This document shows, one piece after another, positions 38,119 through 48,062 of a stretch of 64,000 nt of DNA. Source of the stretch: Spirochaetia bacterium (GTDB lineage Bacteria; Spirochaetota; Spirochaetia; Sphaerochaetales; Sphaerochaetaceae); assembly GCA_022482625.1 (NCBI GenBank), contig JAKVOU010000001.1:3148784-3212783 (forward strand). Reading direction: 5' to 3'. Numbering within the stretch: the stretch's first letter is position 1; the number at the start of each line of letters is the position of its first letter. Below the pieces are notes generated by a model. The model saw nothing but the letters and a program-made list of their open reading frames with translations, did not search any database and was not told the origin of the DNA. A program made the position numbers and the translations under genes.

Positions 38119-38218
38119 TGTTTGTAAATATCAGAAAGGGCATACTTCTCAAATGTATGCAGCTTAGGAATCAAAGCTTCTGGATTTACAGAATTATAAA
38201 AAAATATACTTCTTAAAT
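38119..38218 (-). repeat. Decayed CRISPR repeats beyond the array
   Basis: Two 36-base segments at 38119-38154 (27 of 36 matching the repeat) and 38183-38218 (about 23 of 36) lie 64 and 66 bases apart and in phase with the array. They look like old repeats with their spacers at the leader-distal end. Confidence 0.65.
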
Positions 38219-38248
38219 AAAGATACCCGTGGGCAATGATACAATGCT

Positions 38249-41200
38249 GGTTATAGGTATTAGAAAGAACATACTACTCAAATCCACATTCGTGGGGGTG
38301 TTTCTCTACCAAAACGTTAAAAAACATACTACTCAAACCTGTCGGACATGTCAAGCAAAAAAATAAAGGTTTATAGGTATTAGAAAGAACATACTACTCA
38401 AACATAAAAGAGAACCTGCAGAAACTTGAAGAGGGTTTATAGGTATTAGAAAGAACATACTACTCAAACAGAGCTACTGTCCTAGGTCTTGGCATCAAAG
38501 GTTTATAGGTATTAGAAAGAACATACTACTCAAACCTTCTCCAGACGCATTGCCGTCTTGCGGATGGTTTATAGGTATTAGAAAGAACATACTACTCAAA
38601 CAGGGGCTGCAACAGAGTATTTTGAGCCGGTGGTTTATAGGTATTAGAAAGAACATACTACTCAAACTCGTGCGAGGTGGGAGACCATCTAGCAAAGGGT
38701 TTATAGGTATTAGAAAGAACATACTACTCAAACGATTAGCAGAACCATTGATACTTCCGCAGCGGTTTATAGGTATTAGAAAGAACATACTACTCAAACT
38801 TATTGCATCATTGCCTGCATTGGCACCTGGGTTTATAGGTATTAGAAAGAACATACTACTCAAACGGATGAGATTACCTCATTCCTGGCCGAGAAGGTTT
38901 ATAGGTATTAGAAAGAACATACTACTCAAACAAGAATTAGAAAGTGACGGCACTTCCACTTGGTTTATAGGTATTAGAAAGAACATACTACTCAAACTAG
39001 CTTTCTCTTTGTCACGAGCGGCCTGAGGGTTTATAGGTATTAGAAAGAACATACTACTCAAACGGACAAGGCGAGCTCGCATCAGGGGAACGAGGTTTAT
39101 AGGTATTAGAAAGAACATACTACTCAAACGCTACCTGGACTGGCTGGAGGGCAACGGCAGGTTTATAGGTATTAGAAAGAACATACTACTCAAACTTTCG
39201 ATCGGGACCTGGGACACTTCCACATGGTTTATAGGTATTAGAAAGAACATACTACTCAAACCGATAATTGGGACCGATGTAGCGGTAGAACGGTTTATAG
39301 GTATTAGAAAGAACATACTACTCAAACGAATCTAAAAAAATTCGCACCTGCAGGGTTTATAGGTATTAGAAAGAACATACTACTCAAACAGCATACCATG
39401 GATAAGTGCCACAGCCTGTGGTTTATAGGTATTAGAAAGAACATACTACTCAAACAAAGGGACGGCGAATCATTTGGTGGGATAGGGTTTATAGGTATTA
39501 GAAAGAACATACTACTCAAACCGCACTCCTGACTGCCACCGCCACCGGCACGGTTTATAGGTATTAGAAAGAACATACTACTCAAACGTCAAGGCTTGGG
39601 TTGACAACCCATTCAGAGGTTTATAGGTATTAGAAAGAACATACTACTCAAACTTTTGCATTTGCAGGATTATCAATGAGACCGGTTTATAGGTATTAGA
39701 AAGAACATACTACTCAAACATCCTTTCACCTTCTGGAACAATCTTAATAGGTTTATAGGTATTAGAAAGAACATACTACTCAAACTTATGTACTGAGTAG
39801 GGCTTTTTGCCTGACGGTTTATAGGTATTAGAAAGAACATACTACTCAAACAGGTCATAGCTCCTTGTGTCGTCAACTACAGGTTTATAGGTATTAGAAA
39901 GAACATACTACTCAAACGGATACCTCAGCCCTATATGAGCCGCGAATGGTTTATAGGTATTAGAAAGAACATACTACTCAAACCCTGGGCATAGGCAATG
40001 CTCCCGATGTCGGGGTTTATAGGTATTAGAAAGAACATACTACTCAAACATCTACGCTACGCTGCACATCATTAGTCTGGGTTTATAGGTATTAGAAAGA
40101 ACATACTACTCAAACAACTCTGTCCCCATCGTTTTTAACGATGTAGGTTTATAGGTATTAGAAAGAACATACTACTCAAACATAGGGTCGACACAGCAGG
40201 TTGCCGGATTCGGTTTATAGGTATTAGAAAGAACATACTACTCAAACAGGTCCAAGGTCACATTGTCGCAATGCTTGGGTTTATAGGTATTAGAAAGAAC
40301 ATACTACTCAAACTAATTGCGACTCCGGGTGAAACTGTTGATTGGTTTATAGGTATTAGAAAGAACATACTACTCAAACGCAGCGTGCCTGTGTATCTCG
40401 CATGTCCATGGTTTATAGGTATTAGAAAGAACATACTACTCAAACCCATCATGGATGTAGATTAAATCGTCGCCAGGTTTATAGGTATTAGAAAGAACAT
40501 ACTACTCAAACGCAACACCTTTATACGACACAGACGTGATAGGTTTATAGGTATTAGAAAGAACATACTACTCAAACCTTCTTGACCTCAATGGATTCCA
40601 GGTGCGTGGTTTATAGGTATTAGAAAGAACATACTACTCAAACGGAGGTGACTGGTCAAAGGATGGCATAAAGGGTTTATAGGTATTAGAAAGAACATAC
40701 TACTCAAACACAGACATGGTCTTTGACACAATTTTGCTGGGTTTATAGGTATTAGAAAGAACATACTACTCAAACTCCCCATCGACATCCATATCATCAT
40801 AATAGGGTTTATAGGTATTAGAAAGAACATACTACTCAAACTGAAGATAGAGCTTTTGGCAAATGGGGTAAGGTTTATAGGTATTAGAAAGAACATACTA
40901 CTCAAACCCCCATGTTTCGCAATCCGTTTTGTCGGCCGGTTTATAGGTATTAGAAAGAACATACTACTCAAACGAAGCAGTTACCTCAAAGCCCAAGGAT
41001 GGAGGTTTATAGGTATTAGAAAGAACATACTACTCAAACGCGTCGGGTGGATTGCCACCCTTCGGTGCTGGTTTATAGGTATTAGAAAGAACATACTACT
41101 CAAACAGGACATGAGGGACACATTCAAGTTGCGCTGGTTTATAGGTATTAGAAAGAACATACTACTCAAACGACACCATCAGGTCAGTACAACGCCAGGG

Positions 41201-41633
41201 GGGTTTATAGGTATTAGAAAGAACATACTACTCAAACTCCGAAGAGTGTCATAGGCTCTTGGGAACGGGTTTATAGGTATTAGAAAGAACATACTACTCA
41301 AACTGTATTATGACGTATTAAATGACAATTACTGGTTTATAGGTATTAGAAAGAACATACTACTCAAACACAATCCTCTTGTCGGCAACTGCTATCAGTG
41401 GTTTATAGGTATTAGAAAGAACATACTACTCAAACGAACCTCCTTGTAGCGGTTGTTCATAATGCGGTTTATAGGTATTAGAAAGAACATACTACTCAAA
41501 CCGACTGTAATGCAGTGTACAAACCCTGTGAGGTTTATAGGTATTAGAAAGAACATACTACTCAAACTATGTGACGGATTTTGACGAGGAGAACGGCGGT
41601 TTATAGGTATTAGAAAGAACATACTACTCAAAC
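38249..41633 (-). CRISPR. Type II-A CRISPR array, 50 uniform repeats plus two imperfect ones
   Basis: The 36-base repeat reads GGTTTATAGGTATTAGAA then AGAACATACTACTCAAAC on the plus strand. Fifty copies, apparently identical, start every 66 bases from 38368 to 41598, giving 30-base spacers; one interval is 62 bases with a 26-base spacer (39328-39353). Two imperfect repeats precede them: 38249-38283 (one base deleted, last base changed) and 38303-38338 (only the 3' half conserved). Spacers all look different. Transcription is on the minus strand from the leader next to csn2, so the imperfect repeats lie at the old, leader-distal end. The crRNA repeat is GTTTGAGTAGTATGTTCTTT in its first 20 bases and pairs with the tracrRNA at 47969. 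Confidence 0.99.
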
Positions 41634-41790: not shown

Positions 41791-42462
41791 CTAAAACTGA
41801 CAAAAATCTGTATCTATCACAACTTTCTGGAATAGTTCTTTATCAATAGAAATATCTTTGGCTTCTATAAACATTATAGCAATTGATTCCTTGATGCAAC
41901 TTTCTATCAGTTTAGTAATTTCATTCATAGGTAAAAAATTCATAAGATTGACAAAACAGAATAAAGAATAGTGCATGTATTTATTATATGATAAAACTGA
42001 ATCAAAAATATGTTCAACCAAGGAATTACCGAGAGTGTCGACATGAAATGACAAGGCTTTGATTATTGCGTTAATAGGAATTTCTTCTACAGGAGTAATA
42101 GCACCAGGAAAATCATATGCGAGGTCAATAGCATATGATTTAAGCATGCTTATTAACTTGTTTGTTGCTTCATAGTGGTATTCGTTTATGGCGTCTTCTT
42201 CCACTTGTTTATTGATTGCATTTAATATTATTTTATCATTCGGATCAAAGGCTAGGGGGTCAATGATTACTTTTAGATTTTTATCAAGTGGCATTATTTT
42301 TTCTTCTTCAGATAAAACAAATAAACCAGAATTTCCTTCACTTTGATTTTTTAGCTCAGTAAGAACTTGCGAAAACACAGAAGGTGCTTCTATGACGAGC
42401 AGAAGAGATTTTCTTTCTATATTAGAAAATTTAAAACATAATTCAGGATGTACTAAGTTCAT
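41791..42462 (-). CDS. csn2: CRISPR-associated protein Csn2 (type II-A)
   Basis: A 223-residue protein. The N-terminal part LLLVIEAPSVFSQVLTEL, FVLSEEEKIMPLDKN and VIIDPLAFDPNDKII matches the short Csn2 family, followed by the helical region and the C-terminal strand SIAIMFIEAKDI. Csn2 forms a ring-shaped tetramer that slides on DNA ends and is needed for spacer acquisition with Cas1-Cas2 and Cas9. Its start overlaps the cas2 stop by 4 nt. Its presence assigns the locus to subtype II-A. Confidence 0.9.
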   Translation of the reverse strand: MNLVHPELCFKFSNIERKSLLLVIEAPSVFSQVLTELKNQSEGNSGLFVLSEEEKIMPLDKNLKVIIDPLAFDPNDKIILNAINKQVEEDAINEYHYEATNKLISMLKSYAIDLAYDFPGAITPVEEIPINAIIKALSFHVDTLGNSLVEHIFDSVLSYNKYMHYSLFCFVNLMNFLPMNEITKLIESCIKESIAIMFIEAKDISIDKELFQKVVIDTDFCQF

Positions 42463-42764
42463 AGGAAAACTACTTTATCAATAGTATTGATGATGTCAGA
42501 TTTTGACTTTCCGACGATATATTCCATTTCGTTGTATTCTTTTTCGGAAAGAACCAATACTTGTACAATTCCTTCTTCAAGTTTATAATTTCTTAGCTTT
42601 TCTATTACTAATTTCGCTGAGGAAGGATTTAAGACAATTTTTGAATAGATTGATTCCTGCATCATAATAAAACCTTCCGTTATTAGCCATTTCCTAAACT
42701 TTCTATACGTCCTTTTTTGATTGCTAGTCAGTATCGGTAAATCAAACATAATTAAGATTCTCAT
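42459..42764 (-). CDS. cas2: CRISPR-associated endonuclease Cas2
   Basis: About 101 residues from the ATG at 42764, giving the standard beginning MRILIMFDLP with the conserved Asp of Cas2. The frame also holds an ATG at 42782 and a TTG at 42788, which would overlap cas1. The ferredoxin-like fold is indicated by KRTYRKFRKWLITEGFIMMQ and the strand VQVLVLSEKEY. It bridges Cas1 dimers in the spacer-integration complex. Confidence 0.93.
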   Translation of the reverse strand: MRILIMFDLPILTSNQKRTYRKFRKWLITEGFIMMQESIYSKIVLNPSSAKLVIEKLRNYKLEEGIVQVLVLSEKEYNEMEYIVGKSKSDIINTIDKVVFL

Positions 42765-42774
42765 TATTTTTTTC

Positions 42775-43650
42775 TCATTCATATTCAAAAAATTTGATTA
42801 GATTGATATTTTTGGATTGCAAAGCTTGGAATAAACTTGTGCAATAAATTTCAGTGGCATTGAGAAAATCATAATGCCTGTCATTTATTTTTAATTTACA
42901 ATTGAATATACCCAGCAATTCATGCTTCAAAGTCGTTGTAAATTCATCGAAAGGCATCATATAAAAGACAATCTGATCGACTAATGGTCGAAAAGGTTCC
43001 ATCAAATCACAACCAAGATTAAAAGTATTATGTACATTTGAATGGCAAATTCCTAATTCCGTCAAATATCCATTCTTTACGATTTCTCGATTGAACACTG
43101 ACAATAAGATCCCATAACCGTAATTCAAAGCTGCATTAATGGGGGTATCTGTATGTCTGGAAAAATTATTTCCAAATAGAAGATGGAAATATTTTTTTGC
43201 AACTTGTGCTTCCATTTTTGATTTGTCTCCAAGTAACACGCTTTCTGCTTTTGCTTTAAAATATCCTAGGTCGTCAATATGAAGCCGGGCAACCATTTCT
43301 TGTTGTTTCTTTATCTTTTGTCTTACAATTTCTGTCCAGACCAAAGTCTTTGCATTAATAGTCCAATTGATTTGTACTAAGATTCGTTCATTTGTTGTTT
43401 GGGCACAATAAAATGGTTTTAATTCGGAGCAGGGATTGCGAGTACTATCACAGAAAATAGTATCAATACCTCGATTTGCTAACTCCTGTAACAAAACTAC
43501 AGTAAGGCTGACTGCGGTACTTTCAATTATCAACACAGAAATTTCATCAAGAAAAACTTTTTGTATACCATCACTTGTCCGTATGACAAGGTAATTCATC
43601 CTATACTCAAGTTTTGACTGATGACTGATTACAATAGTTCTGAAGCTCAT
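42775..43650 (-). CDS. cas1: CRISPR-associated integrase Cas1 (type II)
   Basis: A 291-residue protein with the type II Cas1 layout. An N-terminal beta domain comes first, then a helical domain with the metal ligands E147 (KMEAQVAKKYF), H203 (ELGICHSN) and E218 (NLGCDLMEPFRPLVD). It inserts new spacers at the leader-repeat junction together with Cas2. The start overlaps the cas9 stop by 4 nt. Confidence 0.96.
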   Translation of the reverse strand: MSFRTIVISHQSKLEYRMNYLVIRTSDGIQKVFLDEISVLIIESTAVSLTVVLLQELANRGIDTIFCDSTRNPCSELKPFYCAQTTNERILVQINWTINAKTLVWTEIVRQKIKKQQEMVARLHIDDLGYFKAKAESVLLGDKSKMEAQVAKKYFHLLFGNNFSRHTDTPINAALNYGYGILLSVFNREIVKNGYLTELGICHSNVHNTFNLGCDLMEPFRPLVDQIVFYMMPFDEFTTTLKHELLGIFNCKLKINDRHYDFLNATEIYCTSLFQALQSKNINLIKFFEYE

Positions 43651-47933: not shown

Positions 47934-47962
47934 TTGACAATTTCTAATAGGTATTCTAGGGT
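47934..47962 (+). promoter_or_regulatory. tracrRNA promoter
   Basis: TTGACA (47934-47939), a 17-base spacer and TAGGGT (47957-47962), which keeps the three most conserved -10 bases. The predicted start falls at about 47969, exactly where the anti-repeat begins. Confidence 0.65.
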
Positions 47963-47968
47963 TACAGA

Positions 47969-48062
47969 TAGAAAGAACATACGTTCAAATAAAAATTAAT
48001 TCAAATCGCCCTAGGGCTCGCATTGTGCGAATAAGGTTTGCTGAAAAGCAGACCTATTTTTT
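47969..48062 (+). ncRNA. tracrRNA of the type II-A system
   Basis: Bases 47969-47982 (TAGAAAGAACATAC) are complementary to 14 bases of the crRNA repeat. After a small bulge TCAAAT (47985-47990) pairs with the repeat's first six bases, one pair being G-U. This gives the usual upper stem, bulge and lower stem of a crRNA:tracrRNA duplex. Downstream are a short hairpin GCCC-TA-GGGC, a second TCGCA-TTG-TGCGA, and a terminator hairpin AGGTTTGCT-GAAA-AGCAGACCT followed by TATTTTTT. Predicted length is about 94 nt. It is transcribed away from cas9 and is required for crRNA processing by RNase III and for Cas9 activity. Confidence 0.9.

Follow-up and report, generated by a model that had tools for sequence, protein, structure and literature searches.

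In the crRNA:tracrRNA duplex of Streptococcus pyogenes the internal loop is asymmetric, the tracrRNA contributing more bases to it than the crRNA. Guides of the S. pyogenes type carry a nexus followed by two hairpins, according to passages of PMC7606464, where the Tde and Cca1 groups of tracrRNAs are named apart from the Spy-like group. Passages of PMC6882279 place an AA between the lower stem and the nexus in most type II-A systems and describe the bulge as needed in other systems and missing in some species. Excerpts of PMC6070500 and PMC4521832 report a double-stemmed nexus, also termed a 'bulged stem loop nexus', in lactobacilli and Bifidobacterium bifidum. In the sections of PMC8931148 that treat FrCas9 of Faecalibaculum rodentium, small-RNA sequencing in E. 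coli shows a tracrRNA that lies upstream of cas9 and is transcribed in the direction opposite to the cas genes.

The stretch of spirochaete DNA analysed here (the window, 64,000 nt) holds at 47968-48062 (+) what is, with a probability of roughly 94%, a tracrRNA gene belonging to a type II-A CRISPR-Cas9 system, the host being a member of the family that includes Sphaerochaeta. The call is based on pairing with the repeat, uniqueness, covariation with the repeat, covariation of the hairpins, and promoter position; transcription we infer. The RNA is an ordinary member of a type already known and its gene looks intact; the single odd feature is its internal joint. No Rfam 15 family matches it above the gathering threshold, and the matches listed for Sphaerochaeta or spirochaete tracrRNA in the open-licence literature include no paper on this RNA.

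The type II-A locus and its guide RNA

The window contains one locus with cas9, cas1, cas2 and csn2, encoded on the minus strand and apparently intact (Table 1). Its array holds 49 distinct spacers between exact repeats, and the repeat, read in the direction of the cas genes, is GTTTGAGTAGTATGTTCTTTCTAATACCTATAAACC. Degenerate repeat copies at 38119, 38248 and 38317, past the array's far end, correspond to the decay that is usual on the trailer side. A search for protospacers in 50,697 phage records gave only four matches at E 0.3, which are unconvincing, and the spacers have no match in the rest of the window at up to five substitutions. The best PDB match of the Cas9 is 9jwk, probably FrCas9, an identity assumed from its length. 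Elsewhere in the window, a large open frame at 51599-54202 matches selenium-dependent xanthine dehydrogenase (TIGR03311).

Table 1. Features of the CRISPR-Cas9 locus and of the tracrRNA gene, in window coordinates
Feature	Coordinates	Strand	Remarks
CRISPR array	38248..41633	- (crRNA strand)	50 exact repeats and one degenerate (38248)
csn2, type II-A marker	41791..42462	-	TIGR01866
cas2	42459..42788	-	TIGR01573
cas1, type II	42775..43650	-	TIGR03639
cas9, 1408 aa	43647..47873	-	TIGR01865, 869.6 bits
tracrRNA promoter, -35 box TTGACA	47934..47939	+	read in the sequence; offset kept in the family
ATAGGTATT	47947..47955	+	identical to 9 nt in the repeat's distal part; within the promoter spacer
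-10 box TAGGGT	47957..47962	+	17 nt past the -35 box; weak, 3/6 match
tracrRNA	47968..48062	+	about 95 nt, putative start; matched by held-out covariance model at 47984-48031
Upper anti-repeat TAGAAAGAACATAC	47969..47982	+	14 nt, identical to the repeat
Bulge G	47983..47983	+	1 nt, faces 2 nt of the crRNA
Lower anti-repeat TTCAAAT	47984..47990	+	7 pairs, two of them G.U
A/T-rich linker	47991..48007	+	17 nt, carries a second TTCAAA motif; length kept across aligned rows
First small hairpin (nexus position) GCC-CUAG-GGC	48008..48017	+	fold, covariation
Second small hairpin UCGCA-UUG-UGCGA	48018..48030	+	fold, covariation
Intrinsic terminator	48034..48062	+	9-bp stem with GAAA loop (stem-loop 48034-48055), T run to 48062

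Upstream of cas9 and divergent from it, the tracrRNA gene begins about 95 nt from the cas9 start, and stem-loops and an intrinsic terminator lie 3' of its anti-repeat. This layout had been proposed in a sequence-only reading of the window, and its order of promoter, anti-repeat, two small hairpins and GAAA-loop terminator holds at the positions in Table 1. That reading had drawn the hairpins as GCCC/GGGC and TCGCA/TGCGA; both are present, the first with only 3 bp around a CUAG loop, since pairing GCCC with GGGC leaves a loop of 2 nt. It had also contrasted two small hairpins with the single nexus of S. pyogenes. The two RNAs share a bulged duplex, a nexus-like stem-loop, two further hairpins and a T run. 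They do differ, in that the first hairpin here follows a 17-nt linker instead of an AA junction, hairpins 1 and 2 touch, and the internal loop is 2x1 (crRNA x tracrRNA) rather than larger on the tracrRNA side. However, because the nexus and two hairpins of Spy-like guides correspond to two small hairpins and a terminator here, the number of stem-loops is no real difference, and the notion of two elements in place of one nexus falls away.

Judged by clade, the likely home of this tracrRNA is the Tde and Cca1 groups, Tde presumably standing for the spirochaete Treponema denticola. Its nexus region, like that of lactobacilli and B. bifidum, contains more than a single stem, although here the stems are those of two separate adjoining hairpins, as against the nexus forms described in parts of PMC6070500 and PMC4521832. 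The F. rodentium locus, as portrayed in extracts of PMC8931148, is likewise of type II-A with cas1, cas2 and csn2 and has its tracrRNA upstream in the opposite direction; the likeness is one of layout, and the lengths differ, its tracrRNA being 71 nt without the T run compared with about 88 nt here.

Pairing with the repeat and position of the promoter

Cofolded, crRNA and tracrRNA form 14 pairs and then 7 more, separated by an internal loop with 2 nt on the crRNA and 1 nt on the tracrRNA, at −24.7 kcal/mol. Of the 14+6 bp duplex around a small bulge read earlier, the upper 14 pairs stand, while the lower stem has 7 pairs, two of them G.U. Such folding had been proposed as a check on the gene; it gives that duplex energy, and both hairpins covary across relatives. 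Outside the array, the exact 14-mer TAGAAAGAACATAC has a single occurrence in the window. Across the 3 contigs of the genome (3.47 Mb), TAGAAAGAACATACN{0,6}TCAAA matches 51 array copies and, beyond the array, this locus only; neither the opposite strand nor a reversed control contains the pattern. Genome searches allowing three mismatches add 13 non-CRISPR places vs 12 in the reversed control, and 12 vs 22. An anti-repeat with better pairing elsewhere, which had been named as an outcome that would speak against the gene, was thus found neither by the pattern nor by the three-mismatch searches. Ranked on duplex energy alone, it comes first among 8,022 tiles, with a lead of just 1.4 kcal/mol. 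The whole tracrRNA is more stable than its shuffles (z −3.7). Since the two small hairpins on their own are no more stable than shuffles (P 0.12), comparison with relatives had to decide.

The promoter is placed by its distance from the lower anti-repeat. TTGAC lies 46-55 nt before it in 18 of 21 family loci, where shuffles lead one to expect 1.6, and the other three have TGGACA at −49; TTGACA in the window is at −50. Outside the family, TTGAC stands at −64 to −80 in 22 of 26 loci and at −51 or −52 in two, and is absent in two. These offsets suggest that the transcript starts at the anti-repeat in spirochaetes and some 20 nt further up in most other loci, where the anti-repeat is often longer. 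L066, L136, L099, L064, L065 and other clostridial loci have anti-repeats of up to 27 unbroken pairs and promoters about 20 nt further upstream. The TTGACA promoter of the sequence-only reading is thereby upheld in its −35 box and its conserved position; its −10 box TAGGGT is poor, and a stricter consensus scan does not list the pair, whose sole support is that conserved position. Several relatives, L048 and L054 among them, have a tracrRNA −35 box that runs into the start and ribosome-binding site of cas9, which would put the cas9 promoter within the tracrRNA gene or past it; in the window this box and the cas9 start are about 60 nt apart.

The promoter spacer also holds ATAGGTATT, possibly a leftover from the distal part of a once longer anti-repeat that survived inside the promoter. 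When the 29-nt segment is shuffled, 606 of 20,000 versions match as well (3%), and the remnant is therefore only a hint; the rest of the window has two such 9-mers in 59,800 bases.

Comparison with relatives

Among 139 genomes of the family, 33 match the Cas9 at E ≤0.001, 26 of them (this genome included) over most of the protein, and the closest relatives found are just ~42-44% identical. The stretch upstream of cas9 was read in the window and 25 family loci. A set of 80 loci from named genomes was obtained with an alignment query, a single-protein query having yielded none. A covariance model, R1, which spans the lower stem, the linker and both small hairpins, was built from nine relatives, all of them sequences with a six-base loop and with the window excluded. 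R1 recovers the window at 47984-48031 with an E-value of 5.8e-4 in 1.24 Mb; the window's locus was not reported in a genome-wide search at an E limit of 0.001 or in a search of the phylum with stricter filters. The model recovers 22 of 26 family loci and, at E ≤1, 35 of the 80 named-genome loci, the full 80 including five contigs of its training genomes; 34 of the 35 matches lie within ~330 nt upstream of cas9. In L130 and L068 the match is on the cas9 strand, not divergent, with no TTGAC ahead of either. R1 finds no fitting unit in the family loci L058, L060 and L061, whose Cas9 is ~35% identical, and none in L062, which holds a 3' piece of cas9 without the upstream region. Candidate anti-repeats do occur upstream in L058, L060 and L061, with stem-loops of another shape behind them.

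Joint scanning with R1 took in the window, 26 family loci and 24 of the 80 named loci, chosen as earlier R1 matches; L118 and L123, which are weak matches, were added for the swap test, the promoter offsets and the linker and loop measurements. The first MAFFT view leaves out L041, L042, L058, L060 and L061, and alignment A3 additionally leaves out the window and L052.

Repeat and anti-repeat change together across these relatives. Over 35 loci, cognate pairs average −28.9 kcal/mol vs −14.75 for swapped ones (sd 0.89; the strongest mean among 20,000 permutations is −18.4). The cognate repeat heads the ranking in 24 loci, the window among them, and is in the top three in all 35. The hairpins covary as well. 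In 45 distinct rows, 7 of the 8 hairpin pairs have changed on both sides, 98.6% of 349 cells are paired, and double-sided changes fill 71 cells vs 16.3 in shuffles, none of 500 of which reaches as high, counts that lean towards the proposed structure, alignments A5 and A6 having been fitted to the model. Slid alignments, used as controls, reach at most 75% paired cells and 7 double changes. In the 80-locus set alone with the window, all 8 pairs show double-sided change, and RNAalifold gives the identical 8 pairs.

The spacing of these parts is also conserved. All 48 aligned rows have a linker of 16-20 nt and a gap of 0-1 nt between hairpins 1 and 2, and 40 keep CAA or CAAA in the linker. Of 41 loci, 36 have a 1x3 internal loop (crRNA x tracrRNA); the window is the only one with a 2x1 loop. 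The crRNA repeat of L052 also begins GTTTGAGTAGTATGTT, its row showing an additional 5' base; between CATAC and GTTCAAAT this locus carries TAAA, which is missing from the window. The 2x1 loop is here read as a small deletion in the window's anti-repeat, and it might impair function.

The second TTCAAA, in the linker, was considered as an alternative lower anti-repeat and ruled out: in a comparison by eye of relatives whose crRNA repeat starts GCTTTG or GCTTCG (L048, L050, L053, L054), the first motif tracks the change in the repeat and the second does not. Folding of the linker back onto the anti-repeat gives −3.76 for own pairs vs −2.44 (sd 0.23) in 45 loci, and −5.44 vs −4.04 (sd 0.35, P 0.00015) in 20 family loci, statistics that ignore kinship. 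The window shows nothing of the kind (−1.0), and with kinship uncontrolled a conserved switch is not claimed.

Alternative readings and implications

That a stray repeat fragment and some hairpins came together by chance is very unlikely, close to negligible. The shuffle-like stability of the hairpins and the narrow lead in duplex energy would allow it, but position, order, the unique exact 14-mer, the held-out model match and the comparative evidence all oppose it. A start further upstream, from TTGAAA (47914) and GACAAT (47936), would give a longer RNA that also pairs through ATAGGTATT. This pair of boxes is the sole promoter-like site on the plus strand of the gap found by scanning (9/12), the added sequence slightly strengthens the duplex (−27.4 vs −24.7), and the promoter of clostridial relatives does lie ~20 nt further up. 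Yet the scan finds 3 sites where shuffles hold 2.1, and the offset of −46 to −55 common to all 21 family loci (18 with TTGAC, 3 with TGGAC), which the window fits, makes the longer form quite improbable.

The internal joint raises a different matter, whether the gene is decaying, with about four anti-repeat bases that held the usual bulge lost and interference no longer good. The missing TAAA and the solitary 2x1 loop fit such a loss, as does the account in passages of PMC6882279 of a bulge required in other systems, though absent in some species. Against this, the cas genes are open and full length, the array has 50 identical repeats and 49 distinct spacers, and promoter, hairpins and terminator are retained, so that decay appears unlikely. 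An apparently intact tracrRNA gene is the preferred reading. As a tentative extension, less likely than not, the inverted 2x1 joint would function and the Cas9 would have become adapted to guides lacking the usual bulge, while the conserved 17-nt linker of the clade would be a module read by Cas9, able in many relatives to fold on the anti-repeat before the crRNA arrives.

By analogy with the known pathway, RNA polymerase would start near 47968, right at the anti-repeat, and stop at 48062. The tracrRNA would then pair through 14 + 7 bases with every repeat in a pre-crRNA transcribed off the other strand. After cleavage of the upper duplex by RNase III, the dual guide would be bound by Cas9 through its lower stem, its linker and both small hairpins.

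This tracrRNA would be the missing RNA for putting the 1408-aa Cas9 to use. The comparative set defines a guide-RNA architecture common to spirochaetes and Clostridia, together with the window's departure from it. If the locus is active, the bulge would be less essential than has been assumed.
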